A DNA stretch of 64,000 nucleotides from Proteobacteria bacterium UBA7415 (GTDB taxonomy: Bacteria > Pseudomonadota > Gammaproteobacteria > Arenicellales > Arenicellaceae): the NCBI GenBank assembly GCA_002470515.1, contig DKML01000031.1, forward strand, positions 248,001-312,000, written 5' to 3'. Every line of letters begins with the position of its first letter. The first letter of the stretch is position 1. The position numbers and the translations under genes are program-made. Positions 35,913 through 59,158 of the stretch are shown in pieces. The notes under the pieces were generated by a model. That model had not been told where the DNA came from. It saw only the letters and a program-made list of their open reading frames with translations, and ran no database searches.

Positions 35913-36647
35913 TTATTTATTGGTATTTTGCTCGACTACACCCATGGTGTGGTCAAGCATCGTGGCATCACCTGGCTTCCCGTGACCTGGCACCACTAGA
36001 GTAATTGGGTTGAATTTATCCTTTACTTTTTGTACCGAACTCGCCCAACGGCCAATACTGGCATCACCCGTAAACCCAAGGCTACCCCACTCAAAGCTTC
36101 GGATCAAACATCCGCCAAACAAGACTTGTTGTTCTGGCAGCCAAATCACTAAATTGTCTTTTGCGTGCCCTTCGCCAGGATAAAATGCCTGAACGCGACC
36201 GCCCAACATTTCAAAGCTCTCTCCTGAAAACGAATTCAATGCTCTGGTTTTTCCTTTCTCAAGAAGAATCTCATCTGTCATCTTAGAAGTGTACGTAGGT
36301 ATCGACTTTGAGTTGAGTAACGCTATGCCTGCGGTTCGATCATCATGAAAGTGGGTAGAAATACTCCCTTGCAATTGCCACCCCTGGCCGGCAATCCACT
36401 TTAGTAACAGCTCAGTGTCCGTTTCTGACCAAGGAGTGTCAACGATAAAGGCTTGATCTTGATGCACTACAACAAGGCCATTGGAATCTATCCACCCCGA
36501 TCTCTCAAAGTGCTTGTATGAAGTATGTACATATACGCCATCTGTAAGAGGCTCTACCCTCAGCGGCTTATGAACTTCGTTCGCGTGGAGATGCTGGCAA
36601 ACAGCTAATGTGAAAAGCAGAGGTAAGACGACTAAATACTTATTCAT
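35913..36647 (-). CDS. Subclass B1 metallo-beta-lactamase
   Basis: A complete 244-residue metallo-beta-lactamase with a signal peptide (MNKYLVVLPLLFTLAVC). The zinc ligands are all in place: HFHDDR (H99, H101, D103) and H161 in GEGHAKDN, C180 in GGCLIRS, and H222 in PGHGKPG. The Zn2 Cys and this spacing mark subclass B1, and HFHDDRTAGI plus GGCLIRS are close in pattern to VIM-type enzymes. It should hydrolyse penicillins, cephalosporins and probably carbapenems in the periplasm. Some B1-fold proteins have other substrates. It is adjacent to the cold-shock/DUF1294 gene and has no mobile element touching it. Confidence 0.88.
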   Translation of the reverse strand: MNKYLVVLPLLFTLAVCQHLHANEVHKPLRVEPLTDGVYVHTSYKHFERSGWIDSNGLVVVHQDQAFIVDTPWSETDTELLLKWIAGQGWQLQGSISTHFHDDRTAGIALLNSKSIPTYTSKMTDEILLEKGKTRALNSFSGESFEMLGGRVQAFYPGEGHAKDNLVIWLPEQQVLFGGCLIRSFEWGSLGFTGDASIGRWASSVQKVKDKFNPITLVVPGHGKPGDATMLDHTMGVVEQNTNK

Positions 36648-37642: not shown

Positions 37643-38281
37643 TTACCCTTTACAGGCTTCTTTAAAACCAGCAGCCACAAATGGAATCATGATTCCATAC
37701 GCAGTCTGAAAGTCGGAGCTGTGACATTTGTTGTTCGATAGCCGGTCTATACGTCCGGTTTGAGCCAGGGTTAGCGTAAGCGCGCCCGAAAGATTGTGAT
37801 AACACCAATAGATTTTTTCTTCATCTGCGTCAGGCATCGCTTTTTTAATTGCAGCCAGAAACTCTAGAACGAGCGCATCAAAAGTAGATGACATTAACTT
37901 CTCACCCCATACTGCAGAATTATTCACATATGCAATAAGTGCCAGATAGTTTTTCCAGCCTGGGTCTGGGCTTTCTTGCGCTATTTCTAAAGGCAGAAGA
38001 AAGGCCTCAATGATTTTTTCGATGGTAGGGCCAGACTTGCCAGCCTCGGCTTGAACTTTTTGTAACGCCTCTAAGCGTGTTCTATTGAGCTCTCCTGCGC
38101 GACGTTGAAAAACGGCTTCGAATACATCCATCTTTTTACCAAAATGGTATCCAGCTAAGGCTAGATCCACGCCCGCCTCGGAGGCGATTTTACGCATGGT
38201 TACGCCATCATACCCATGATAGGCAAACAAGGCTTCGGCCGCATCCAAGATCTTATCTTTCTTTTCTATTTTTGGGCTCAT
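37643..38281 (-). CDS. TetR-family transcriptional regulator
   Basis: A 212-residue TetR/AcrR repressor. The N-terminal HTH has KILDAAEALFAYHGYDGVTMRKIASEAGV (about 10-38) and LALAGYHFGKKMDVFEAV, the recognition helix. The C-terminal part is helical and would bind a small ligand. It is divergent from the Na+/solute symporter gene, with a perfect 7-bp-arm palindrome between them, and the same palindrome occurs before the receptor at 40117. It is therefore a good candidate regulator of both and probably of itself. Confidence 0.88.
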   Translation of the reverse strand: MSPKIEKKDKILDAAEALFAYHGYDGVTMRKIASEAGVDLALAGYHFGKKMDVFEAVFQRRAGELNRTRLEALQKVQAEAGKSGPTIEKIIEAFLLPLEIAQESPDPGWKNYLALIAYVNNSAVWGEKLMSSTFDALVLEFLAAIKKAMPDADEEKIYWCYHNLSGALTLTLAQTGRIDRLSNNKCHSSDFQTAYGIMIPFVAAGFKEACKG

Positions 38282-38422
38282 GCTCGGCCGATAGAGTCGT
38301 TTTTTATGGTTAGTTCAACTTAGCACAAAAGTCATTTAGAGTCTCTTTTGCGCTTCTAGAGCGCCTCTCTGGCGCATTTATTCAGTTTCTTTTACAAATT
38401 ACACGAGTATTATATTTGTAAT

Positions 38423-38438
38423 TTCAACAAATGTTGAA
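38423..38438. promoter_or_regulatory. Palindromic operator between TetR and symporter genes
   Basis: TTCAACAAATGTTGAA has 7-base arms with a two-base centre, followed by TATA. It lies 38 bases before the symporter ATG and 142 bases from the TetR start. The core recurs before the TonB-dependent receptor at 40040-40055. Candidate site for the TetR protein. Confidence 0.75.
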
Positions 38439-38475
38439 TATATTTTGCCCTGCCTAACTTTCAAAGAAGAAAACC

Positions 38476-39903
38476 ATGACACCAGAAATCTTTAAGTACT
38501 TACTTACCTTCTCTTATCTAGTTCTTGTTCTGTGGTTATCGTTCATTGGAATGCGGCGCACAACTGATCTCGCAAGCTTTGCGATTGGCGATAAGCAATT
38601 CAGCCCTTATCTGATTGGCTTAACATTGTCAGCGTCTATAGCGTCTACAGCGACCTTTGTGATTAACCCCGGGTTTATATACGTACATGGTTTATCCGCG
38701 TTCTTTCATTTTGGCATTGCCGCTTCGGGCGGAATCCTCACTGCGTTCTTAGTTCTCACCAGAGGCTTCTTAAAGTTTGGCACATCGAGTAATGCCGTCA
38801 CCATTCCGCAATGGGTATACCATCGCTATCAGAGCGGCGAGTTGCGTTTGTTCTTTGCTGTTATTAACTTACTTTCAATTGCCTTTGTTGTATTAATCTT
38901 AGTAGGTTGCAGTCTTTTAGTAAGCGGTATGTTTCCAGTAAGCCAGAAGCTCGCATTGGTGCTCGTCATGCTGTTCGTTTTTTCATACGTGTTAACGGGC
39001 GGCACCTATGCCCATGCCTACACCAACGCATTGCAGGGTGGCATGATGTTGCTCATCGCGATTTTTCTATTTGCCGATGGGATTGGCACAATGGGTGACG
39101 GTTTTGTTAGTTCTTTACGCGCCGTAGGTCCGGATTTCGCCAGCGTGTTCAATCCGTCATCTGATCTGTATTACGACTTTTTCTCGGTTTTTGTGTCGGG
39201 CTTTGTCGTTACCTTTGCGCTGATGCTACAGCCGCATATTCTGACCAAGATTCTTTATTTGCGCGAACCGAGTGACATAAACAAGTTTATCTGGACCACG
39301 GTCTTAGTCGGCTTTGGCTTTAGTCTAATTTTAATGATTGGATTTTTCGCTCGCTTTTCTGGCCTAGAAATCCCCATGCAAGATCAAGTCGTGCGCGACT
39401 ACCTTGTGTTCCGTTTTATGGGTACCGAAGCGGGCGCTTACCTGCTTACTTTTATTTTTCTCACCTTACTCGCAGCCGGTATGAGCACGCTAGACGGTAT
39501 ATTAGTGTCGCTGTCCGCTATGGTTATTAACGACATCGTTGTGCCATTAACGGGTCGAGCTGACCAAGGCCTTATGTTTTCGCGTATCTTTTTAATTGCG
39601 CTGGGCTTAGTTGGCGTTGCTCTAGCCTGGAACCCCCCAGCACTTGTCGGATTATTTGCGCAAAAAGGAGTGTATGGTTTGGCGGCCGCGTCAGCTGCGC
39701 CTATCCTTATCGGCGTTTTATACACTAAGCCGATACCCGCATGGATCGCGTTAAGCTCAGCCTTCGTCGGGCTATTCACCCATTTAGCCTTGAATCTTGG
39801 CTATGGCGTCAGCAATCCAGCCGTATCGGCAACATTGGCTATCTTTGCCTCGTTTGCGGTATTCGGAACGGGCTTATTGCTGAACAAAACTCGCCAAGCT
39901 TAA
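38476..39903 (+). CDS. Sodium:solute symporter family permease
   Basis: A 475-residue inner-membrane carrier of the SSS/SLC5 type with about 12-13 helices. Family features include GMRRTTDLASFAIGDKQFSPY, SIASTATFVINPGFIYV (helix 2 region), and LAAGMSTLDGILVSLSAMVINDI near 330-352. It takes up an organic solute, perhaps a carboxylate or a zwitterion, with Na+. An AAGAAG site precedes the ATG and a candidate operator lies 38 bases upstream. Downstream are a TonB-dependent receptor, ligase and hydrolases, which suggests that it carries the catabolic substrate or its product. Confidence 0.85.
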   Translation: MTPEIFKYLLTFSYLVLVLWLSFIGMRRTTDLASFAIGDKQFSPYLIGLTLSASIASTATFVINPGFIYVHGLSAFFHFGIAASGGILTAFLVLTRGFLKFGTSSNAVTIPQWVYHRYQSGELRLFFAVINLLSIAFVVLILVGCSLLVSGMFPVSQKLALVLVMLFVFSYVLTGGTYAHAYTNALQGGMMLLIAIFLFADGIGTMGDGFVSSLRAVGPDFASVFNPSSDLYYDFFSVFVSGFVVTFALMLQPHILTKILYLREPSDINKFIWTTVLVGFGFSLILMIGFFARFSGLEIPMQDQVVRDYLVFRFMGTEAGAYLLTFIFLTLLAAGMSTLDGILVSLSAMVINDIVVPLTGRADQGLMFSRIFLIALGLVGVALAWNPPALVGLFAQKGVYGLAAASAAPILIGVLYTKPIPAWIALSSAFVGLFTHLALNLGYGVSNPAVSATLAIFASFAVFGTGLLLNKTRQA

Positions 39904-39933
39904 CCGTTCCTTAGTTAAAGTTTGTTTGACATT

Positions 39934-39951
39934 GCCTAGCGATGGCTAGGC
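39934..39951. terminator. Short hairpin after the symporter gene
   Basis: GCCTAGC and GCTAGGC flank a GATG loop, starting 31 bases after the stop. No T-run follows. It shares TTGCCTAGC with the hairpin at 34653-34688, so it may instead be a dispersed palindrome. Confidence 0.45.
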
Positions 39952-40018
39952 TTCTGCTCGCTTTCGCAATCACTATGAACTTACCTTAACGGACCATCGC
40001 ACCATTCCCCATTGACAT

Positions 40019-40055
40019 TTCAACGCTTGTTGAGTATTTTTCAACAAACGTTGAA
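40019..40055. promoter_or_regulatory. Two operator-like palindromes before the TonB-dependent receptor
   Basis: TTCAACGCTTGTTGAG (40019-40034) and TTCAACAAACGTTGAA (40040-40055) begin 21 bases apart, two helical turns, and both have the TTCAAC-N4-GTTGA pattern of the site at 38423. The second copy matches it in 15 of 16 bases. They lie 62-98 bases before the receptor start. Confidence 0.75.
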
Positions 40056-40116
40056 TAGAAGATACGCGTTGCTTTAAATAATAATACTCATGAACACCCT
40101 TACTGGAGGACTCCCC

Positions 40117-42396
40117 ATGAAAACATTAAGACTCAAAGCGTCCGCACTTGCTGTGGCATCGCTGGTCAGCTTTGGCGCTGCTTTACCCGCACAAGCACAA
40201 TCAAGTGACGGCGCAGGCGAACAAGCCAAGCTGGAAGAAATTGTAGTAACCGCACGTCGTCGCTCAGAATCTCTACAAGATGTGCCGATTGCCGTAACAG
40301 CGATTACAGGCGACCAATTATCACTTAGAGGCGCTGCTGATATTTCTGAGCTCACTCAATCAGTACCTAGTCTCACGGTTGAAGCATCGCGTGCAACTAA
40401 CTCTACACTAACCGCGTTTATCCGCGGCGTTGGTCAGCAAGACCCTTTGGCTGGCTTTGAGCAAGGTGTTGCTCTTTACATCGACGACGTCTACATGGCT
40501 CGCCCTCAAGGGGCATTGCTAGACATCTATGACGTTGAACGCATCGAAGTATTGCGTGGCCCTCAAGGCACATTGTACGGACGTAATGCTGTTGGCGGCG
40601 CAATTAAATATGTTACTCGACGTCTTTCTGACGAACCTGAGTATCGCGTAAAAATGTCAGTCGGTGAGTACAACCAAGCAGACTTAGTAGCAACGGCGTC
40701 TTTGCCAATCAGCGACACATTTCGCGTTGGCGGTACATTCGCTACGCTTAACCGTGACGGTTATGGCGACAACTTAACGACCGGTGCAGGCAACTACGAT
40801 AAAGATGTAACGGGTATACGCCTAAGCGCCGAGTACGAGCCAAGCGAAGACGTATTAGTTCGTCTTAGCTACGACAATACAGACGACGACTCGTCTCCTG
40901 TTGCTGGCTTTAGACCATTCGCAGGTGCCTTTACGGGCTCACCAGTGTTGAGCAACGTTCGCGATACATTTGCTGGCGCTGCAATCAGCCCTTCTACAGC
41001 CGGCATTAACGGTAATAATTCAGTAGAAAGCGAAGGCATCCATTTGTCAGTAGATTGGGCAATTAACGACAATCTAACGTTCCGTTCTATCACAGCCAGC
41101 CGCGAAGACTTCACCGAGTCCGTCATTGATTTTGACAGCCTTGCGTCGCAAGATTTTGACGCTCAAGTGGTTTACGACAATGAGCAGTTCAGCCAAGAAT
41201 TTCAGTTGTTATACGACACAGACCGCCTAAATGTAGTCACAGGTTTTTACTACCTAGATGCCACTGCATCAAATGACTTTGACGTAGTACTAGGGCAACT
41301 AGGCGTTTTAGCTTTTGGTGCTCCATTAACCGCGTACACAGGCGGCGTGGTTGACACCGAGTCTTGGTCAGTATTCGCTGATGCGACTTACGCTCTTAAC
41401 GATCAGTGGAGCCTAACTTTAGGCGGTCGTTATACCGAAGACAAACGAAGCGCGGATATCTTTAGAGCCAACTACTTAGGTACAGGTTCACCACAATTAG
41501 GTAACCCTAGCGCGTTTTTCTTAGCCGCAACCAGTGATTTTGAAGCTAATCGTAAGTTCGATGACTTTACGCCCCGCATTAATATCGCGTATACGATCAA
41601 CGACAATATGAATGTCTATGCTGGCTACAACCAAGGCTTTAAAGCCGGTAGCTTTGATCCGCGTGGGGCCAACTTTGCAACGGCTGAAGTAGTGAATGGT
41701 TTTGAACCAGAAACGATCGACTCTTTTGAGCTGGGCTTTAAAGCCACTTTGCTTGATGGTCGTGCAACCACTAACGTTGCGGTGTTCCAATCTGAGTACA
41801 AAGACATGCAAATCCCTGGTTCAATTGGGGTAGACACAACGGGCGACGGCAACAACGATTCGTTTGTTGGGTCTGTAACCAACGCAGGTCAAGCCGACAT
41901 CAACGGTGTTGAATTTGAAGGTAACTTTTTATTGACCGACAACTTGTCATTGCAATTAGCGGTTAGCTTGCTAGACGCTGAGATTAAAGAGTGGATCGTT
42001 AACGGTGTTAACGTAGCCGCTCAGCGCGAGGTTCAAAACACGCCAGAATCTATGGCTTTTATTGGACTCAACTACACTAAGCAATTGGCATCTGGCTCGC
42101 TATACCTTGGGGCCAACTGGTCTTATCGCGACGATACGTTCCAGTTTGAGTTGCCTACTCCTGTGTTGGATCAAGAATCTTACGACGTAATCAATGCAAG
42201 CATCGTCTGGTCTAACGACGCAGAGAATGTGCGCTTTGGTTTACACGGCAAGAATCTTGGTGACGAAGACATTAAAACGTCTGGCTACTGCTTTGGTTCT
42301 GGTGGTTGCCCATCAACGCTTGGCTTAGAAGACAACACTACTGTGTTCTACGCGCCGCCACGCACAGTGACAGCGACGCTAGAACTAACATTCTAA
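40117..42396 (+). CDS. TonB-dependent outer-membrane receptor
   Basis: A 759-residue receptor using the ATG at 40117 (GGAGGA precedes it; a 9-codon-longer frame has no ribosome site). It has a signal peptide (MKTLRLKASALAVASLVSFG, cleavage near AQA), the TonB-box region EEIVVTARRRSESLQDVP, and plug motifs FIRGVGQQDP and RIEVLRGPQGTLYGRNAVGG. The barrel ends TVTATLELTF. This type is widespread in marine bacteria for organic nutrients. It is preceded by two operator-like palindromes shared with the symporter promoter. Ligand unknown. Confidence 0.93.
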   Translation: MKTLRLKASALAVASLVSFGAALPAQAQSSDGAGEQAKLEEIVVTARRRSESLQDVPIAVTAITGDQLSLRGAADISELTQSVPSLTVEASRATNSTLTAFIRGVGQQDPLAGFEQGVALYIDDVYMARPQGALLDIYDVERIEVLRGPQGTLYGRNAVGGAIKYVTRRLSDEPEYRVKMSVGEYNQADLVATASLPISDTFRVGGTFATLNRDGYGDNLTTGAGNYDKDVTGIRLSAEYEPSEDVLVRLSYDNTDDDSSPVAGFRPFAGAFTGSPVLSNVRDTFAGAAISPSTAGINGNNSVESEGIHLSVDWAINDNLTFRSITASREDFTESVIDFDSLASQDFDAQVVYDNEQFSQEFQLLYDTDRLNVVTGFYYLDATASNDFDVVLGQLGVLAFGAPLTAYTGGVVDTESWSVFADATYALNDQWSLTLGGRYTEDKRSADIFRANYLGTGSPQLGNPSAFFLAATSDFEANRKFDDFTPRINIAYTINDNMNVYAGYNQGFKAGSFDPRGANFATAEVVNGFEPETIDSFELGFKATLLDGRATTNVAVFQSEYKDMQIPGSIGVDTTGDGNNDSFVGSVTNAGQADINGVEFEGNFLLTDNLSLQLAVSLLDAEIKEWIVNGVNVAAQREVQNTPESMAFIGLNYTKQLASGSLYLGANWSYRDDTFQFELPTPVLDQESYDVINASIVWSNDAENVRFGLHGKNLGDEDIKTSGYCFGSGGCPSTLGLEDNTTVFYAPPRTVTATLELTF

Positions 42397-42473
42397 GCTT
42401 GGATTTAAAATCTAGACAATTAGCACGGCCTTTCTCCTAGGGTCCCTACCTGGAAACTCAGGTAATGCAAGAC

Positions 42474-42509
42474 GATGAGCCGGCGCAAGTAGTTTGCGCC
42501 GGCATCATC
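42474..42509 (+). terminator. Hairpin after the TonB-dependent receptor gene
   Basis: GCCGGCGCAA and TTGCGCCGGC (42479-42503) pair perfectly around GTAGT, and GATGA/TCATC extend the stem past one bulged A. It is 80 bases after the receptor stop and 70 before the ligase. There is no T-run, so it may only pause or protect the transcript. Confidence 0.6.
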
Positions 42510-42581
42510 TATCTAAACTACTTAACACCCGTGTGCGTTTTGGCTTAACAGCTCAGATCCACACCTTTACTTAGCCTGACT

Positions 42582-44162
42582 ATGGACTACTTCCCCTCAG
42601 AAGCGCCTTTGTTGCCCGAAATTCTTGCCCTACATGGCAAGTGGCGTAACACTAAGACTGCAGTCATTTGCGATGACATGTCTCTAACATGGCGTGAATT
42701 TACCCACAGCAATCATAAACTTGCCAATGGACTGCTTGCGCGAGGGTTGAGCACGGGCGACACCATTGCAGTCGTTATGTCTAACGGCATTCCTATGTTA
42801 ACTACCCTAATGGCTTGCATGACCGCCGGCTTAGTGTCAGTGCCCATTAACCTCTCGGTTAACGACGATGCGCTCGTCAACATGATCAACGACGCGAAGT
42901 GTAAAGCTGTAGTGGTTTCCGAAGACCAACGAGCACGCTTGGAACTAATTCGCCATCGTTTAGATAATTCGCAATTAAAATTGTTAAGCGACACACCAGC
43001 AAAAGGCTGGCAAACGATTGACTCGTTACAGAACGATCAATCTACCGATTTACCCAATACTCGCATTCCCGATGATGCAACGCTGAACGTAATTTACAGC
43101 TCTGGCACCACGGGCATGCCCAAAGGCATATTGGCAACTCAGCGTGGACGCCGCGACTGGGCATACGACCTCGCTATTGCCTTGCGCTATCACGGCGCGG
43201 CACGAACATTGTTAAGCATTGGCCTTTACTCAAACATTTCTTGGGTCGCCATGCTCAGCACCTTATTGGCGGGCGGCTGCCTAGTCATTACTAAACAGTT
43301 TGATGCCAGTGCTGCACTGCGCCTAATCAAACAGCAAAAAATAACCCACTTCGCGATGGTGCCCATTCAGTTTCAACGACTGATCGAAACCCTAGAGAGC
43401 GCGCCACAAGACTTTGATGTGGCTAGTGTGCAAGCATTAATGAGTTGCGGTTCACCGTTGCACGCCGACCTAAAGCGAAAGATATTCGAGTATTTTAGCT
43501 GCGGTATCGTAGAGCTTTATGGCCTTACCGAAGGCGTGATCACGACCATTGACCCAGAAGACGCTGAGGGTCTTTGGAGCTCTGTAGGCAAACCGTTAAT
43601 AGGCACCGACATAATGTTGATCGATGACCAAGACAACGAGGTTGCCGCCAACCAAAGTGGCGAGATCGTATCGCGCGGGCGGATCACTATGCCAGGATAC
43701 TTAAATCGCGAAGACGCTAACGCCGAAGCGTGTTTTGACGACGCCTCGGGCCGACGTTGGTTACGCACTGGCGACATCGGTTATTTAGATGACGATGGCT
43801 TTTTGTTTATCGTCGATCGCAAGAAAGATATGATCTTGACCGGTGGTCAAAACGTTTATCCTCAAGACATTGAAGCTGTTTTAATTGCGCACCCACAAGT
43901 AAACGACGTTGCTGTGATAGGCGCTAAGAGTGCACTTTGGGGAGAAACCCCAATCGCAATTGTCGTAGTTGAGTCTGATACAGTTGAAGATGCAGATAGT
44001 TTTAAGACAGACCTCATCGCATGGACTAATCCAAAACTAGGCAAGCAGCAAAGAATTGCAGATGTTGTTATTATTGATGAACTACCACGCAACCCTAACG
44101 GTAAGATTCTAAAAAGAGAGTTGCGCTCCACACTAGACCTACCTGTTTATCATCAGTCTTAA
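42582..44162 (+). CDS. Class I adenylate-forming acyl-CoA ligase
   Basis: A 526-residue ligase with the P-loop VIYSSGTTGMPKG, the YGLTEGV core motif, GYLNREDANAEACF, WLRTGDIGYLDDDGF and DRKKDMILTGGQNVYP, plus the C-terminal NPNGKILKRELR with the catalytic Lys. It activates a carboxylic acid with ATP and CoA in the cytoplasm. Its place between a TonB-dependent receptor and two ester hydrolases, with a CaiT-like carrier downstream, suggests a substrate made by ester hydrolysis. Its N-terminal half differs from the DmdB-like ligase at 18760, so the two probably have different acids. Confidence 0.87.
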   Translation: MDYFPSEAPLLPEILALHGKWRNTKTAVICDDMSLTWREFTHSNHKLANGLLARGLSTGDTIAVVMSNGIPMLTTLMACMTAGLVSVPINLSVNDDALVNMINDAKCKAVVVSEDQRARLELIRHRLDNSQLKLLSDTPAKGWQTIDSLQNDQSTDLPNTRIPDDATLNVIYSSGTTGMPKGILATQRGRRDWAYDLAIALRYHGAARTLLSIGLYSNISWVAMLSTLLAGGCLVITKQFDASAALRLIKQQKITHFAMVPIQFQRLIETLESAPQDFDVASVQALMSCGSPLHADLKRKIFEYFSCGIVELYGLTEGVITTIDPEDAEGLWSSVGKPLIGTDIMLIDDQDNEVAANQSGEIVSRGRITMPGYLNREDANAEACFDDASGRRWLRTGDIGYLDDDGFLFIVDRKKDMILTGGQNVYPQDIEAVLIAHPQVNDVAVIGAKSALWGETPIAIVVVESDTVEDADSFKTDLIAWTNPKLGKQQRIADVVIIDELPRNPNGKILKRELRSTLDLPVYHQS

Positions 44163-44189: not shown

Positions 44190-45053
44190 ATGGCTAAATT
44201 CACTAAACACCTGTACCAAAGTAACGATGGCTTAACGCTCTACGCGCGATACTATGACTGTCAGGGTCTAGAACAAGGCGTGATTCTCTGCATGCACGGG
44301 CTCACACGTAACTCTGCTGACTTCGAGCCAATTGTAGACGAACTGGTCAAAACACATCGAGTAATTACCGCAGACCAACGCGGACGTGGCCGTTCGGCGT
44401 ATGACCCTAATCCAGACAACTACAATCCGGCTGTGTATGTAGCCGATATGTTTAGCTTGCTGGACTCGTTGAAGCTCGACAAAGTAATTCTGTTCGGTAC
44501 ATCCATGGGCGGCTTAATGGCCACCATGATGAAAGCCACGCAACCCGAGCGATTCTCTGCTCTGATCATCAATGATATATGTGCTGACATAAATCCAGCT
44601 GGACTTGAACGAATAATGAGTTACGTGGGCACTCAAGAAGCCATTACTGATTGGGACGCTGGGATTGCTGAGATAAAACGCTTAAACGCTGGAATCTTTC
44701 CCAATTTAGACGAAGACGGTTGGTTAGCCTTTGCGCAACGCATCTTTATTGAATCACCTGATGGCGGTTTGGAGTTTGATTACGACCCAGCAATTCGTAA
44801 ACCACTAAAGGCCAACGAAGAAAATGCGGCTCCACCAGACTTATGGCCGGTTTTTCAAGCAGCTGGTAGCACGCCTGTAATGTTAATTCACGGTGAACTG
44901 TCTGACCTACTGGTCGAAGAAGGCGTTAACAAGTTTAAAGACTTAGTACCCAACTTAAAATATGTAAAGGTCAAAGGCGTAGGCCACGCGCCAATATTGG
45001 ACGAGCCTGAGGTAGCACCCGCCATAAAAGCTTTTCTTGCGCAGTTAGTGTAG
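44190..45053 (+). CDS. Alpha/beta-hydrolase, esterase/lipase type
   Basis: A 287-residue cytoplasmic hydrolase with no signal peptide. It has CMHGLTRNSADFEP, ADQRGRGRSAYDP, the nucleophile elbow GTSMGG (S105), and GVGHAPILDEPE with the catalytic His near the end. A Asp acid is likely in HGELSDLL. A TAGGAA site precedes the ATG. It starts 27 bases after the ligase stop, so they are probably co-transcribed and act in the same pathway, cleaving an ester or similar bond. Confidence 0.87.
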   Translation: MAKFTKHLYQSNDGLTLYARYYDCQGLEQGVILCMHGLTRNSADFEPIVDELVKTHRVITADQRGRGRSAYDPNPDNYNPAVYVADMFSLLDSLKLDKVILFGTSMGGLMATMMKATQPERFSALIINDICADINPAGLERIMSYVGTQEAITDWDAGIAEIKRLNAGIFPNLDEDGWLAFAQRIFIESPDGGLEFDYDPAIRKPLKANEENAAPPDLWPVFQAAGSTPVMLIHGELSDLLVEEGVNKFKDLVPNLKYVKVKGVGHAPILDEPEVAPAIKAFLAQLV

Positions 45054-45176
45054 TTCTTCCAATTTCTTATTCAGGTATGTGAAGGGGCTTGCCGTAGCGC
45101 AAAACATCCAGTACCACCTGCCCTCGATGTTCTGATACTCTTGTTCTCCCACGCTTTAGATCAAAGGAGAACTCAA

Positions 45177-46697
45177 ATGATGCAACCCCTCTTAGTACGC
45201 ATTGCAGCGCTCGCACTTTTAGCTATAGGCCACGTTCAAATGAGCGCCGCGTCTACTGATTCTGATACCCACTCTCATACTCCCTACGCGGTTGGTGTTA
45301 AGACTCTGTTTATTCACGATGAGTCGCGCCCCTATGATGCCCTTGCCGGCGTAAACGTGGGGGTTAGGTCGCTGCTTACCGAAGTCTGGTATCCGGTAGA
45401 TCATTCAAGCTTGACCAACGAGAAGGAGAGTGAGGCACCAGCCTATCAACAAGCGATCTTCGGTGATTACGTTTTTGGACGACGCGATATTCATAAAAAG
45501 ATGATGACGCAAACCACGTTCTTTCATCTAACGCCACAAACGGTACGCGATGGTGTAACTAAAGAACAAATGGATGCGGCAATGGCGGAACTGTTTGATC
45601 GCCCACGTAACGCTTACATTAATGCGCCATTGGCAAAAACCGACCAGCCGTTCCCCATAGTAGTGATGACCCACGGCGATGCTGGCAGTCGCTACAATAT
45701 GGAAACCGCCTGCGAAGCACTAGCCGCACAAGGCTATGTGGTCATAGCACCGGAACATACCGGCAACACGCCTTTTGCGCTTACGGGCGAAGACCCTGCG
45801 CTTAAAGAAGGCTTTGCAGATGCTGAGTTAGCCAAGAAAATGGCCGAAGTTAAGGCGGTGTTGAACACAGATGGAACCTATGGACCTGAAGATAGCTATG
45901 GCCAAACCTACACGCCGCTAGCAAGCTCAGACGAAACAGGTATGGCATTTATTCAATTAGACAAATCACTGGTCGAACGCGTTAACGATCTACGTGCTGC
46001 ACTAACAACGTTAGAGCAGTGGAATACGTCTGGTGAGTTTGCAGATCGCCTAGACATGCAGCGTATTGGAGTGATGGGTCGATCGTTTGGCGGCATGACC
46101 ACTTTGGCGGCGCTGGGCTTAGAAAATCGCTTTGTAGCTGGCGTAGCCGTTGTACCGCTAGTGTTTCCTGATTTTCGGCCTGCCTTACCAAAAGAAGCAT
46201 TAATCGGTGAAGAAGGCGAAACGGTGTTATTGGATCGCGAAGGCGATATCACCCTGAATACAGTACACAAGCCGACGCTGTATTTAAGTGGCGCCGAAGA
46301 CGCCCTAATTATTGGTTCGGGCATTCGGATGGCACAAAACTTTGGTGGCCCAGTTCCATCTCAAAATAATCCACACGCGGTTTTACGAGCGTCATATGAA
46401 AGTACAGATCTGCCTGTTTATTGGGGTTTACTGAAAAACTCGAATCACTCAAGCTTTGGAATATCAGGCGGTTATTGGTGGCCTGAATTAAAGCCTGACT
46501 CGCAGACGCGCACATTTTCACCGGATGAAAAATTTACCTTAGTTGCTCCTATTTTGGCGCATGAGATTCAACAAGAGCGCGTTGTAACGTTTTTTGATGC
46601 CTATCTAAAGGAACAGAGCGATGCCATGCAGCGCCTGAGAGAAAATCCGTTTTCTGACGGCGGGTTTGAGTACGAATATCGCAACGCTGGCGAATAG
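45177..46697 (+). CDS. Exported alpha/beta-hydrolase, PAF-acetylhydrolase/dienelactone hydrolase-like
   Basis: A 506-residue protein starting at the ATG at 45177 after AAAGGAG. It has a signal peptide (MMQPLLVRIAALALLAIGHVQMSAAS). The catalytic region contains YPIVVMTHGDAGSR-type oxyanion segment (FPIVVMTHGDAGSRY), IGVMGRSFGGMTT with the nucleophile Ser, and a long insert typical of the large PAF-acetylhydrolase-like group. It probably cleaves esters in the periplasm before uptake. It follows the cytoplasmic hydrolase by 123 bases, and the BCCT carrier follows it by 58 bases. Confidence 0.8.
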   Translation: MMQPLLVRIAALALLAIGHVQMSAASTDSDTHSHTPYAVGVKTLFIHDESRPYDALAGVNVGVRSLLTEVWYPVDHSSLTNEKESEAPAYQQAIFGDYVFGRRDIHKKMMTQTTFFHLTPQTVRDGVTKEQMDAAMAELFDRPRNAYINAPLAKTDQPFPIVVMTHGDAGSRYNMETACEALAAQGYVVIAPEHTGNTPFALTGEDPALKEGFADAELAKKMAEVKAVLNTDGTYGPEDSYGQTYTPLASSDETGMAFIQLDKSLVERVNDLRAALTTLEQWNTSGEFADRLDMQRIGVMGRSFGGMTTLAALGLENRFVAGVAVVPLVFPDFRPALPKEALIGEEGETVLLDREGDITLNTVHKPTLYLSGAEDALIIGSGIRMAQNFGGPVPSQNNPHAVLRASYESTDLPVYWGLLKNSNHSSFGISGGYWWPELKPDSQTRTFSPDEKFTLVAPILAHEIQQERVVTFFDAYLKEQSDAMQRLRENPFSDGGFEYEYRNAGE

Positions 46698-53072: not shown

Positions 53073-55208
53073 TTAAAATTCGCGGCGCGCGCTAATAAAG
53101 AACGTTCGTGGTTCACCTGGAAAATAGCGCTGTTGAGTAAAGCTCGTGTAGTCTGCTCGTTTAGCATAGCGCGCATCCAATACATTGAGCAACCGTGCTG
53201 ACAGCGTCCACTGTGCATTAAGCTGTTTGCGTGCATAGAGGTTCACGATCTCATGTCCCGCATACTCAAAAGCATTTGTGGGCTCAAGAAAATAACTGGC
53301 TTCGTGTTGCAATTCGGCCGTGACCGAGTATCTGTCATTAGGTGCGAATCGTAATCTTAGCGAGCCTGCCGTCTTGGGCGCTGTATCAACAAATAACCCA
53401 CGCACTGAAGACCCATCTATTATTTGATCCGAAGCATATTTATGCTCTGCATAAGTGCCGTTCAGTTGCAGCGACCACTCAGTGTTGATCGACCAGTCGG
53501 CGGCAAACTCTAGGCCTTCTGACTCAGTGGCATTGCCGTCTACGCTGAAGAAGTCTGAATCGCGAATAATTACATTATTAAGATCCAAGCGATATATCGA
53601 TGCGTTCAAACTCAGCGTGTCGGATTCATATACCACACTGATTTCGAGATTATCGGCCGTAACACTATCAAGATCCGCAACCTGCTGCTCTCGTTGCAGG
53701 CGGTAAAGCTCAGTTGCCTGCGGTGCACGTGCCGATTCGGATGCGGCAACGTAGGTCTGCCACTGATCGTTTACCTGATACCTGACTTGTAGTTTGGTTG
53801 ACCAATCGGTGAATGTGTCATCGCGGTCCGCAGGCCTAGAATATCGACAACCACCAAAGCCACAATCAGTGCCATCGTCGCGTGTTCGGCCATCAAGCGT
53901 TAGATTGTCATACTCATAATCGAGCCGCTCGCCACGTATCCCAGCTATTACTTGCCAGCGGTCATTGGGGGTCCAGCGAACATGCGAAAACGCCGCCAAC
54001 TGTTTTGCGACAACCGCGTAATCGTACTGAATGCCCGCAGGGATCGTTGCCACCAAAAATGGCGATCCCGAAGTAGGGTTCTCTTGCGACTGGCGTAACT
54101 CTCCATCTGACCAGTCGCCGTCAATACCCACCACACTGGTAAAGTTGTTGCTGTGCTCAGTCGTTAACGCCGATTGCCAACCCACACCCGTTTGCGCATT
54201 TTGCTCCAATGGATCCCCTGGCAAAAAATGCATACGGAAGTCCATATCGCTACTTCGTACATAGCTAGTGAGTTGTAGTTGTTGAGTATCGTTAAGCTGC
54301 CTATGCCATCGGCCCCAAGCACGAATCGACCGAGTATATCGAAACGCTTCTGGGTCTAAATTCTGGCGCGCCAGACGTTTATCTTGATACGCGTTCTCGC
54401 CAACGATAAAACCAGCCGTTTGTTGATCTAAGCTGGTAATGGTCAAGCCTGCATTAAAACCGTTATCAATGTCGCCTTGGGCATGCCGCCAACTTAATTT
54501 GTATTGCTCGAACCCTGCGTCATCGCGATACCCACCATCATGAGTTAGGCTGAGCGCTATACGATTACGGCTTTGTGTCGACAAGTTATAAGCGCTTTGG
54601 AGTCGCATATACTCATTCGACCCCGCCTCCATAGAAATGTAATTTGGTCCTTGCGTTGCAAGATTCACATTGACCATTCCGGTCAGCGCGTTGGACCCAA
54701 AGAAAGCCGTGCCCGGTCCACGAGTCACTTCAATCGATTCGGCATTTTCAAAATGCGTATCGAACAACTCGTTCACATTGCAAAAGGCAGGCCCGCGAAC
54801 AGGTATAGCGTCTTCCAACACTAAAACACTGCCACACGCTCCTGCTCCCGTCTGTACGGCCGAACGAATGCCTGGCAATGATTCTTGACCATTACCGCGC
54901 TGCGTTGTTACGCCCGGCACACGTGCAAGCACCTGCTGAATATGGACAGCGTTGATTTCTTGCAACTCTTGAGAGCCAATCTGGCTAATATTGAGAGGTA
55001 CGTTATCGGCACTCTCAGCCGTACGCGTTGCCGTGACAATGACCGTCTCAAGCACATCATTGTTTGCACTCTTGATAACAACATTGTTTTCAGCTTGGGC
55101 GTGAACCACTTGGATGTGGAAAAATATAGGTAAAGCAATAAGTAAAATTGCAGCACCCTTATTAAAGCCTAAGAAGGATTTCTTTGCGAATAGTGAGAGT
55201 TGGGACAT
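53073..55208 (-). CDS. TonB-dependent outer-membrane receptor
   Basis: A 711-residue receptor with a signal peptide (about 1-38, ending VVHAQA), a TonB-box region ETVIVTATRTAESADNVP, a plug with RVPGVTTQRGNGQESLPGIR and ESIEVTRGPGTAFFGSNALTG, and a barrel ending FISARREF. The carboxy-terminal Phe is typical of outer-membrane proteins. It is shorter than the other two receptors and carries a Cys pair (ACGSVLV, FCNVNELF) in the plug. It lies between the BetA-like gene and prpF. Ligand unknown. Confidence 0.92.
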   Translation of the reverse strand: MSQLSLFAKKSFLGFNKGAAILLIALPIFFHIQVVHAQAENNVVIKSANNDVLETVIVTATRTAESADNVPLNISQIGSQELQEINAVHIQQVLARVPGVTTQRGNGQESLPGIRSAVQTGAGACGSVLVLEDAIPVRGPAFCNVNELFDTHFENAESIEVTRGPGTAFFGSNALTGMVNVNLATQGPNYISMEAGSNEYMRLQSAYNLSTQSRNRIALSLTHDGGYRDDAGFEQYKLSWRHAQGDIDNGFNAGLTITSLDQQTAGFIVGENAYQDKRLARQNLDPEAFRYTRSIRAWGRWHRQLNDTQQLQLTSYVRSSDMDFRMHFLPGDPLEQNAQTGVGWQSALTTEHSNNFTSVVGIDGDWSDGELRQSQENPTSGSPFLVATIPAGIQYDYAVVAKQLAAFSHVRWTPNDRWQVIAGIRGERLDYEYDNLTLDGRTRDDGTDCGFGGCRYSRPADRDDTFTDWSTKLQVRYQVNDQWQTYVAASESARAPQATELYRLQREQQVADLDSVTADNLEISVVYESDTLSLNASIYRLDLNNVIIRDSDFFSVDGNATESEGLEFAADWSINTEWSLQLNGTYAEHKYASDQIIDGSSVRGLFVDTAPKTAGSLRLRFAPNDRYSVTAELQHEASYFLEPTNAFEYAGHEIVNLYARKQLNAQWTLSARLLNVLDARYAKRADYTSFTQQRYFPGEPRTFFISARREF

Positions 55209-55363: not shown

Positions 55364-56539
55364 CTAGATTTGATCGTTAGGCACGTGCACAAAACCATCC
55401 ATCAATACGCGTGCAGAGCGCGACATTATTGCTTTTTCAGCACGCAACTGATCGCCCTGTTTGCCAACTTGCCCACCCACTTTCAACGTACCAGAGGGAT
55501 GACCAAATCGGACTGCTGGCAAATCACCACCGCCAGCAGCCAGATTAACCAATGTGCCAGGCACTGCACTAGCAATGCCTATAGCGACAGCCGCCGTGCC
55601 CATCATTGCATGGTGCAATTGCCCCATGGACATAGCTCTTACCAGTAAGTCTATATCGTCAGCGTTCACTGCAGCGCCACTAGACGCTGTATACGTTTGA
55701 GCAGGCGCTACCCACGCAACTTTGGGCGTGTGCTGGCGAGACTCCGCTTCGGAGATATCTTCAATGAGCCCCATTCTGACTGCGCCGTGTGCGCGTATAG
55801 TCTCTAAGCGTTCTAACAGCTCAGTGTTCGAATTAACGTCGGACTGCAGTTCCATACCCGTTAAAGCCAAATCAGCTGCGTTTAGAAAGATAGTTGGGAT
55901 ACCTGCGTTCACTAAAGACGCTTTCAGTAACTTCTCGCCAGGCACTTCGAGATCATCAACCACATTTCCCGTTGGGAATATGGCGCCATCGCCCGCTGGG
56001 TCCAAAAACTCAAGCTGCACTTCGCCCGCAGGAAAGGTAACACCGTCTAGCCAGAAATCACCGGTCTCTTGAACCGCACCACCACTCATTGGAATTCGCG
56101 CAATAATAGATTTACCGATATTCACTTGCCAGATTCGTACCGTAGCTATGCCATCGGTCGGTAAAGCGCTGGTATCAAACAATTTATTAGTAATGGCAAA
56201 TGCACCCACGGCTGCTGTTAAATTGCCGCAGTTACCACTCCAATCAACGAATGGTCGATCAATAGCAACTTGTCCAAATAGGTAATCAACATCGTGTTCG
56301 GGTTGGGTACTAGCAGACAGAATAACGGTTTTGCTAGTGCTGGAGGTTGCGCCACCCATTCCATCCGTTTGTTTTGCATACGGATCTGGACTGCCTATGA
56401 CTCGCAATAACAATGCGTCACGCTCTGGACCTGCTTGCTGTGCAAACTCAGGCAGATCATCCAGCTTAAAGAAAACACCTTTACTGGTACCGCCACGCAT
56501 ATACGTCGCAGGAATTTTGATTTGAGTTCTGGCTGACAT
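55364..56539 (-). CDS. prpF: PrpF, AcnD-accessory isomerase
   Basis: A 391-residue PrpF-family protein, starting MSARTQIKIPATYMRGGTSKGVFF, with SGNCGNLTAAVG (the DapF-like catalytic Cys strand) and the C-terminal AAGGGDLPAVRFGHPSG. PrpF isomerises trans-aconitate and supports AcnD in the 2-methylcitrate cycle. It starts 18 bases after the acnD stop, so the two form an operon, as is usual for this pair. Confidence 0.92.
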   Translation of the reverse strand: MSARTQIKIPATYMRGGTSKGVFFKLDDLPEFAQQAGPERDALLLRVIGSPDPYAKQTDGMGGATSSTSKTVILSASTQPEHDVDYLFGQVAIDRPFVDWSGNCGNLTAAVGAFAITNKLFDTSALPTDGIATVRIWQVNIGKSIIARIPMSGGAVQETGDFWLDGVTFPAGEVQLEFLDPAGDGAIFPTGNVVDDLEVPGEKLLKASLVNAGIPTIFLNAADLALTGMELQSDVNSNTELLERLETIRAHGAVRMGLIEDISEAESRQHTPKVAWVAPAQTYTASSGAAVNADDIDLLVRAMSMGQLHHAMMGTAAVAIGIASAVPGTLVNLAAGGGDLPAVRFGHPSGTLKVGGQVGKQGDQLRAEKAIMSRSARVLMDGFVHVPNDQI

Positions 56540-56557
56540 CTTTATTAGCTTCCTTGC

Positions 56558-59158
56558 TTATGAAAGAGTTGATTCTAAAAAGTCTTGGGCGAAGCGCTGT
56601 AATACACCGCCCGCTTGAAAAATAGTAACTTCCTCAGCTGTATCCAATCGGCACTTAACAGAGACTGTTTCGCTATCACCATTGGTGCGATTAATCTGCA
56701 CCTTAAGTTCCGCGCCCGCTTGTGGATCGCCGATAACATCAAATGTCTCGGTGCCATCAATCGAATACGTGTGACGCGTTTCGCCATTAGTGAATTCAAG
56801 CGGAAGAACGCCCATACCAATCAAGTTGGTACGGTGAATACGCTCAAAGCCTTCTGCCAAAATCGCTTCGACACCGGCTAGCCGCACACCTTTGGCCGCC
56901 CAATCACGCGACGAGCCTTGGCCGTAATCTGCGCCCGCCACAATAATTAGCGGCTGTTTACGCTCCATGTAGGTTTCGATAACTTCCCACATTCGCATGG
57001 TTGTCCCTTCTGGCTCTAAACGCGCGTGCGATCCTTGTACGATCTCACCGTCTTTGGTCACCATCTCATTCAACAGCTTAGGGTTGGCAAAGGTCGCTCG
57101 TTGCGCCGTTAAGTGGTCGCCGCGATGAGTTGCATACGAATTAAAGTCTTCTTCTGGTAAGCCCATCTTAGCGAGATACTCGCCGGCCGCACTAGACGCC
57201 ATAATGGCATTAGAAGGCGACAAATGGTCAGTCGTAATATTGTCTCCCAATACAGCCAGAGGACGCATACCTTTAAGCGTTCGCTCGCCTGCTAAGGCGC
57301 CTTCCCAATAAGGTGGTCTGCGGATATAGGTGCTCTGTGGTTGCCAATCGTATAGGGGCTTAGTCTTAGGGCCGGTGTTCACTTCGAGTTTAAACATCGG
57401 CTCGTAGACTTTTCGGAACTGTTCTGGTTTTACTGCGCTGGCGACAATTTCGTCAATCTCTTCGTCACTCGGCCAAATGTCTTTTAGGCGTACTTCATTG
57501 CCCTCTTGATCTAGTCCTAAAACGCCCTGCTCAATGTCAAAACGAATCGTGCCTGCTATCGCGTAAGCAACGACTAATGGCGGTGACGCCAAAAAGGCTT
57601 GCTTAGCATAGGGATGAATACGGCCATCAAAGTTACGATTGCCAGACAACACAGCGGTCGCATACAAGTCACGATCGATCACTTCTTTTTGGATTACAGG
57701 ATCAAGTGCACCGCTCATGCCGTTACACGTAGTGCAGGCAAAACCAACGATACCAAACCCAAGTTGTTCTAGTTCAGTTAGTAAGTCGGCCTCTTCCAAA
57801 TACAATTGCACCGCTTTAGAGCCTGGCGCGAGTGAGCTTTTGACCCAAGGTTTTCGCGTTAAGCCCAATCTGTTGGCGTTGCGTGCAATTAAGGCGGCGG
57901 CTATCACATTGCGTGGATTACTAGTATTGGTACAACTAGTGATTGCGGCAATGATGACCGCGCCGTCTGGCATCAAACCATCTTCTTCAACGTAGTCACC
58001 GACAATGCCTTGTTTAACAAGGTCACTTGTCGCTACGCGACGGTGCGGATTAGAAGGTCCAGCAAGATTGCGTACTACGCTGCTTAGATCAAACGTAAGC
58101 ACGCGTTCGTATTGAGCCGTGGCCATTGAGTCCGCCCACAAGCCCGCAGTCTTTGCGTAGTGCTCCACCAATTGCACCTGTTCTTCTTCGCGCCCCGTTA
58201 ATCGCAAATAGTCGATGGTTTTTTCATCGATGTAAAACATCGCCGCCGTTGCACCAAACTCAGGGGTCATATTGGAAATAGTCGCGCGGTCGCCTAGTGT
58301 AAGGGCCCGTGCACCTTCGCCATAAAACTCTAGATACGTCGAGACTACTTTTTGCTCGCGCAAAAATTCAGTAATCGCTAATACGATATCGGTAGCCGTA
58401 ATGCCTGGCTGACGTTTACCGGTTAGCTCAACACCAACAATATCAGGCAAGCGCATATACGACGCTCGGCCTAGCATGACGCTCTCGGCTTCTAAACCAC
58501 CAACACCAATTGCCATAACACCCAACGCATCAACATGAGGCGTATGGCTGTCTGTACCGACTAATGTGTCTGGAAATGCGACACCGTCTTTTACGTAGAC
58601 CACAGGCGACATACGTTCCAGATTTATTTGATGCATGATGCCGTTACCTGGCGGAATCACGTCTACGTTTTCGAAGGCTGTTTTACACCATTCGATAAAG
58701 TCGAATCGGTCTTCGTTGCGACGATCTTCGATTGCTCGGTTTTTCTCAAACGCGTCTGGATCAGCACCGCCGTGTTCAACGGCAAGCGAATGGTCTACGA
58801 TCAATTGAGTGGGTACAACAGGATTAACTTTGGCGGGGTCGCCGCCTTTTTCGGCAATCGCATCTCTTAGTCCAGCCAGATCTACTAGCGCGGTTTGGCC
58901 CAAGATATCGTGACAAACTACACGAGCCGGAAACCATGGAAAGTCTAGATCACGCTTTCGATAGATAAGTTGTTCTAACGAAGCTTTTAACAATTCTGGG
59001 GGACAACGGCGAACTAAGTTCTCGGCGAGTACTTTTGATGTATAGGGCAGACCCGCATAAGCACCGGGCTCAATTTCGTCGACAGCCGCTTGCGCGTCAA
59101 AGTACGATAGTTCGGTAGCGTAAAGAGGAATCTTAAACTGCTTATTCATAATTACCAT
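56558..59158 (-). CDS. acnD: AcnD, Fe/S-dependent 2-methylcitrate dehydratase
   Basis: An 866-residue aconitase-family enzyme. The [4Fe-4S] ligands are C409 (ITSCTNTSNP), C475 and C478 (FACTTCNG), and the swivel domain at the C-terminus has GADYGQGSSRDWAAKGVRLAGVEAI. With PrpF next to it this is the AcnD type that dehydrates 2-methylcitrate in propionyl-CoA degradation. The start is either 59158 or the ATG three codons in; neither has a good ribosome site. prpB, prpC and prpR are not in the window. Propionate could come from DMSP or acrylate breakdown, as inference. Confidence 0.92.
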   Translation of the reverse strand: MVIMNKQFKIPLYATELSYFDAQAAVDEIEPGAYAGLPYTSKVLAENLVRRCPPELLKASLEQLIYRKRDLDFPWFPARVVCHDILGQTALVDLAGLRDAIAEKGGDPAKVNPVVPTQLIVDHSLAVEHGGADPDAFEKNRAIEDRRNEDRFDFIEWCKTAFENVDVIPPGNGIMHQINLERMSPVVYVKDGVAFPDTLVGTDSHTPHVDALGVMAIGVGGLEAESVMLGRASYMRLPDIVGVELTGKRQPGITATDIVLAITEFLREQKVVSTYLEFYGEGARALTLGDRATISNMTPEFGATAAMFYIDEKTIDYLRLTGREEEQVQLVEHYAKTAGLWADSMATAQYERVLTFDLSSVVRNLAGPSNPHRRVATSDLVKQGIVGDYVEEDGLMPDGAVIIAAITSCTNTSNPRNVIAAALIARNANRLGLTRKPWVKSSLAPGSKAVQLYLEEADLLTELEQLGFGIVGFACTTCNGMSGALDPVIQKEVIDRDLYATAVLSGNRNFDGRIHPYAKQAFLASPPLVVAYAIAGTIRFDIEQGVLGLDQEGNEVRLKDIWPSDEEIDEIVASAVKPEQFRKVYEPMFKLEVNTGPKTKPLYDWQPQSTYIRRPPYWEGALAGERTLKGMRPLAVLGDNITTDHLSPSNAIMASSAAGEYLAKMGLPEEDFNSYATHRGDHLTAQRATFANPKLLNEMVTKDGEIVQGSHARLEPEGTTMRMWEVIETYMERKQPLIIVAGADYGQGSSRDWAAKGVRLAGVEAILAEGFERIHRTNLIGMGVLPLEFTNGETRHTYSIDGTETFDVIGDPQAGAELKVQINRTNGDSETVSVKCRLDTAEEVTIFQAGGVLQRFAQDFLESTLS

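Follow-up and report, generated by a model that had tools for sequence, protein, structure and literature searches.

Polysaccharide utilisation loci bring a regulator, a TonB-dependent outer membrane receptor, an inner membrane transporter and degrading enzymes under common control. Polyhydroxybutyrate (PHB), which bacteria store as a polymer, is also marketed as a biodegradable plastic; the literature searched, which was partly swamped by unrelated papers, gave neither a description of how PHB fragments pass the outer membrane of marine bacteria nor any account of extracellular PHB breakdown that involves a TonB receptor or is regulated by a TetR protein. In the available portions of a paper on PHA-degrading marine bacteria, no TonB receptor, TetR regulator or transporter is named (PMC7830162). 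For the regulator PsrA, an operator of the form C/GAAAC-N2-4-GTTTG/C and a response to oleate are described in the portions available of a second paper (PMC13104628).

The window, a stretch of 64,000 nucleotides from the Arenicellaceae bacterium UBA7415, whose genome seems to be marine environmental, contains a divergent tetR gene and symporter gene followed by a gene for a TonB-dependent receptor, with three palindromes of the type TTCAAC-N4-GTTGAA in the two spacers. Judged from sequence, it is very probable that these palindromes are bound by a repressor controlling both the uptake and the breakdown of PHB fragments. The statement as a whole, a PsrA-like TetR regulon for the uptake and use of PHB or 3-hydroxybutyrate oligomers, in which we infer TetR binding, ligand and transported substrate, is considered reasonably likely; the predicted binding of the operators by this TetR is held with more certainty than the ligand. 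The features are as follows.

37643..38281, minus strand: PsrA-like TetR repressor gene, 212 aa (PF00440 and PF17939; nearest solved chains 2fbq/PA3006 and NicR)
38409..38437, minus strand: predicted tetR promoter, TCAACA-17-TATAAT (10/12 in a consensus scan), its -35 inside operator A
38416..38444, plus strand: predicted symporter promoter, TTGTAA-17-TATATT, its spacer being operator A
38423-38438, no strand: predicted operator A, TTCAACAAATGTTGAA, exact TTCAAC-N4-GTTGAA, kept in relatives
38476..39903, plus strand: SSS-family sodium:solute symporter, 475 aa (PF00474), present at 9/9 loci
40012..40040, plus strand: predicted receptor promoter, TTGACA-17-TATTTT, its spacer being operator B1
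40019-40034, no strand: predicted operator B1, TTCAACGCTTGTTGAG, one mismatch, the last base being G (GTTGAG)
40040-40055, no strand: predicted operator B2, TTCAACAAACGTTGAA, exact, overlapping the end of the -10 and the likely start site
40090..42396, plus strand: TonB-dependent receptor, 768 aa (PF00593 and PF07715), with a second in-frame ATG at 40117
42582..44162, plus strand: AMP-binding acyl-CoA ligase, 526 aa (PF00501 and PF13193)
44190..45053, plus strand: alpha/beta hydrolase, 287 aa, without evident signal peptide (PF00561)
45141..46697, plus strand: secreted-looking PAF-AH/dienelactone-hydrolase-like esterase (PF03403, 57.2 bits), a possible extra member of the locus

The TetR protein scored 48.8 bits against PF00440 (cut-off 24) and 112.5 bits against PF17939 (cut-off 26.3), and its structure is predicted to be helical throughout (pLDDT 92.6); one of its nearest chains, 2fbq (PA3006), is PsrA of Pseudomonas. 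General acyl-CoA ligases are the closest matches of the ligase, which also resembles fatty acyl-CoA synthetases; it is proposed to make the CoA ester of 3-hydroxybutyrate. The hydrolase, proposed to act on oligomers, has as its nearest solved chain a hydrolase of no assigned function (3bwx, 6e-56) and is weakly like PHB depolymerases (7e-9 to 8ynv). That the downstream esterase belongs to the locus is uncertain: BLASTP gave no relative of it at the other loci. It matches the type 1 PHA depolymerase model weakly (23 bits; cut-off 150) and could stand in for the depolymerase not found in this genome. A strong hairpin without a T run lies 3' of the receptor gene at 42471-42512 (RNA fold z of -5.6 over 42440-42530) and may separate the expression of receptor and ligase. 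Near tetR, 35913-36647 on the minus strand scored above the curated subclass B1 metallo-beta-lactamase model (NF033088, 247.8 bits; cut-off 200). Further along the window, two minus-strand open reading frames at 55364-59158 resemble, on inspection of their translations by eye, PrpF and an AcnD-type enzyme of propionate breakdown, and a second TonB-dependent receptor lies near them at 53073-55208.

The original prediction had placed one palindrome between tetR and the symporter and two, 21 bases apart, before the receptor, and on recount these coordinates proved right; the pair is 21 bp from start to start with a gap of 5 bp. That the same palindrome stands at all three sites holds for the exact copies at 38423 and 40040, but the copy at 40019 carries a mismatch that had gone unmentioned. 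A motif scan of the genome had been named as a check, and it gave only two exact copies in 3.43 Mb, both at the tetR/symporter/receptor locus, where a first-order Markov model expects 0.37 exact sites per genome and 4e-5 in the 380 bp of both spacers. With one mismatch or none, 12 sites were found genome-wide, 9 of them outside the locus. A wider regulon in this genome was rejected, since these 9 equal the count of a reversed control pattern (9) and 8 of them fall inside mechanically called open reading frames. The sole intergenic one-mismatch site elsewhere in the genome, TTCAACAAGTGTTAAA (contig C23, 1501-1516 of the extracted piece L011), lies 95 bp before a 343 aa open reading frame.

Orthologs of the TetR, defined by an E value of at most 1e-45 (identity about 60-72%; 67-68% over the match in that search), are encoded by four (G001, G003, G007 and G017) of the 20 other family genomes and at four loci of named or MAG genomes, from Seongchinamella unica, S. 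sediminis, a gammaproteobacterial MAG and Dasania sp. Each of these eight loci combines tetR, the SSS symporter and a TonB receptor, and has a single site ahead of the symporter and a pair ahead of the receptor; the layout of one plus two sites is thus present at 9/9 loci with the window included. The AMP-binding ligase comes next at 7/8 other loci, being absent from L023, and the alpha/beta hydrolase is likewise found at 7/8, the contig of L027 ending before it. A class-wide search of 369 evenly drawn genomes for the paired pattern together with a TetR gave matches only in the genus itself; the breadth therefore rests on one contig scan, which gave four loci, and one protein search, from which the best 120 of 2111 matches at 1e-30 were taken. 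On plasmids, two distant TetR relatives (44% and 33% identity) were seen. Across the 35 sites tabulated, positions 2-6 and 11-15 are invariant, a picture favoured by their choice at one mismatch or fewer; the outer T is kept in 29/35 and the outer A in 31/35, and the four central bases are loose, the first leaning to A (24/35) and the last to T (22/35).

The position of the operators relative to the predicted promoters was also conserved. At 9/9 loci the first receptor operator, O1, lies between a -35 hexamer TTGACA (8/9; TTGACT once) and a TAnnnT hexamer, 17 or 18 bp apart. The symporter operator occupies the same register at 8/9 loci, with weaker -35 boxes, the exception being L023, whose symporter promoter is without clear -35 and -10 boxes; the elements on the tetR side are clear in the window and not uniform among relatives. 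Because the promoter scan overall was no better than shuffles (9 against 11.5), weight is placed on the conserved register. One operator fixed in the 17-18 bp between -35 and -10 indicates repression by steric blocking of RNA polymerase. In the proposed mechanism, the PsrA-like TetR (37643-38281) would use the palindromes as its operators. A single dimer would occupy the stretch between the -35 and -10 of the symporter promoter and overlap the predicted tetR -35 as well; two further dimers would lie within and directly behind the promoter of the receptor, and RNA polymerase would be kept out. Binding of 3-hydroxybutyrate, its oligomers or their CoA esters in the C-terminal pocket would then release the repressor. 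The TonB-dependent receptor would carry PHB oligomers across the outer membrane and the SSS symporter would bring monomers or short oligomers into the cell, where the alpha/beta hydrolase would cut oligomers and the AMP-binding ligase would form the CoA ester; in relatives, the same operators would also turn on secreted PHB depolymerases.

The substrate, PHB or 3-hydroxybutyrate oligomers, is the new part of this reading and goes beyond the original prediction. A secreted PHA depolymerase under the same operators is present in the relatives G001, G003, G007 and G017. L025, L027 and L028 each have an additional operator pair, which lies before a gene for a type 1 extracellular PHA depolymerase (NF050058; 167, 171 and 167 bits; cut-off 150). 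In G003, on a contig other than that of the tetR locus, a pair 28 bp apart precedes a 372 aa PhaZ7-type depolymerase (NF050060, 500 bits; cut-off 450; 8e-114 to PhaZ7, 2vtv); this genome also has a type 1 depolymerase, whose contig begins just 74 bases ahead of the gene, and those bases contain no site. At L023 the place of the ligase is taken by a 3-hydroxybutyrate dehydrogenase (1e-84 to 2yz7), which scored 309 bits against NF009093 (cut-off 258) and 294 against TIGR01963 (cut-off 307). In four congeners the shared operator is separated from tetR by a short-chain dehydrogenase gene; two of the four were scanned, and both products are FabG-like and stay under the cut-offs of the acetoacetyl-CoA reductase models. 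That one type of operator precedes depolymerases of two families as well as a 3-hydroxybutyrate enzyme points to PHB and its oligomers. Among the family genomes, 4/5 with tetR have a type 1 depolymerase that passes the cut-off, as against 3/16 without it, and the depolymerase genes of the latter three (G013, G014 and G020; L056-L058) have no operator at two mismatches or fewer within 2.5-3.8 kb, as the model predicts. In the genome of L023, 2.1 kb around a depolymerase-like gene below cut-off (L108) likewise held no operator. By eye, the type 1 gene of G014, a genome without tetR or operators, adjoins an SSS-transporter-like open reading frame (L056, 172-2473).

The main competitor keeps the operators and the repressor and proposes a different ligand and substrate, for example long-chain fatty acids or acyl-CoA (the case of PsrA) or some other ester; the depolymerases of the relatives would then be a side branch. 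It draws on the PsrA-like fold and domain of the TetR, on the likeness of the ligase to fatty acyl-CoA synthetases and on the response of PsrA to oleate described in the portions available of its source (PMC13104628). It also draws on the genome of the window, which has the transport module without an over-cut-off match to either depolymerase family. The scan covered these two families only, type 1 and PhaZ7. No protein of this genome, of the Seongchinamella pair, of the MAG or of Dasania scored above either cut-off (best type 1 scores 46-100 bits), and a search of the window's genome for a 3-hydroxybutyrate dehydrogenase gave no match at 1e-60. Against this competitor stand the depolymerases of two families that the same operators precede and the operon that includes a 3-hydroxybutyrate dehydrogenase; it is judged unlikely, with perhaps a quarter of the weight.

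The original prediction had also proposed cooperative binding at the receptor promoter. The pair of operators is kept before the receptor at 9/9 loci, the 21 bp of the window are two helical turns, and several pairs at 32 bp would be about three. However, the nine spacings (21, 25, 26, 26, 28, 32, 32, 32 and 34 bp, the second operator always behind O1) include 25, 26 and 28 bp, which are near the opposite face, and at the PhaZ7 promoter the second site is on the upstream side, not the downstream one. Fixed-phase cooperativity was tested with 13 pairs and dropped: no common phase emerged, the helical-phase resultant R being 0.28, which 55% of random spacing sets reach (nine receptor pairs alone: R 0.24, reached by 73%). 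With spacings of 21-34 bp and no fixed helical phase, cooperativity as a conserved feature was not borne out, and that two dimers cooperate through a conserved geometry is improbable; since 21 bp is two turns, cooperative binding at the window's own pair is possible.

It is considerably less probable still, and in our judgement very unlikely, that the sites serve a regulator other than the neighbouring TetR. Among the 21 family genomes, 15 exact sites occur in the 5 with tetR against 6 in the 16 without it (binomial, 7e-5), where the control pattern gave 3 and 7, respectively (0.59). The 6 sites in genomes without tetR would speak for another regulator, but 5 of them lie inside mechanically called open reading frames, and all 15 in genomes with tetR are at the tetR locus or before the PhaZ7 gene. 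Moreover, over 16-20 kb, sites with at most one mismatch were absent from the locus of a G007 TetR paralog at 46% identity and from those of two TetRs at 29-30% (G005 and G010), and the 16 bp symmetry with its AAC-N4-GTT core suits a PsrA-like dimer, as far as PsrA is described in the portions available of its source (PMC13104628). With exact sites that track tetR and a layout common to 9/9 loci, the small regulon of TetR, symporter and TonB-dependent receptor that was originally predicted is strongly supported. Coincidence has a negligible claim: loose matches in the window (three mismatches or fewer) did not exceed shuffles (43; mean of the shuffles 34.6), but the rarity of exact sites in the genome, their expectation in the two spacers and the one-plus-two layout at 9/9 loci place the pattern far beyond chance, which conservation already contradicts.

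The window's receptor shares 63-66% identity with those of Seongchinamella and L023 compared to 41-42% with those of its congeners, and in a tree of the nine loci it groups with the Seongchinamella and MAG type (support 100/100). In the symporter tree, the five genus members are separated from the remaining four loci (100/99), a split towards which the TetR and ligase trees also lean (83/93 and 90/92); the hydrolase tree gave no resolved grouping. With the same operator layout under both receptor types, the receptor seems, from the nine loci, to have been exchanged beneath conserved operators with its control kept. Transfer of the whole locus was set aside in favour of receptor exchange, given that the symporter tree, with TetR and ligase leaning likewise, conflicts with the receptor tree.

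If true, import without a depolymerase would represent a scavenger's life on fragments that neighbours release. We offer more tentatively, as a possibility below even chances, the broader idea of a polyester utilisation locus, in which a TonB-dependent receptor actively imports PHB oligomers under a PsrA-like repressor responsive to 3-hydroxybutyrate, species such as this one have kept only import and live on oligomers that their neighbours' depolymerases release, and the receptor is exchanged beneath conserved operators. The conserved operator may also serve as a DNA marker for more parts of the pathway, having already led to the PhaZ7-type depolymerase on a separate contig.

Compared with described regulators, the TetR of this locus shares 24% identity with PsrA and does not reach the cut-off of the curated PsrA model (NF053516, 98.3 bits; cut-off 300). 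As far as the PsrA operators are given in the portions available of their source, the AAC-N4-GTT core is common to them and the window's palindrome, but their consensus is not matched here, as the pair next to the core differs, TCAAC replacing AAAC (PMC13104628). Unlike that of PsrA, the regulon would comprise local transport and PHB functions. NicR2, the repressor of nicotine degradation genes, is about 21% identical to this TetR and serves a different pathway. In relatives, the same operators stand before genes for depolymerases of these described kinds, PhaZ7 and the type 1 extracellular PHA depolymerases. The closest likeness in organisation is to polysaccharide utilisation loci, with which the locus shares the same co-regulated kinds of parts; the polymer, however, would be a polyester, and an SSS symporter, an acyl-CoA ligase and a TetR repressor would distinguish its handling.
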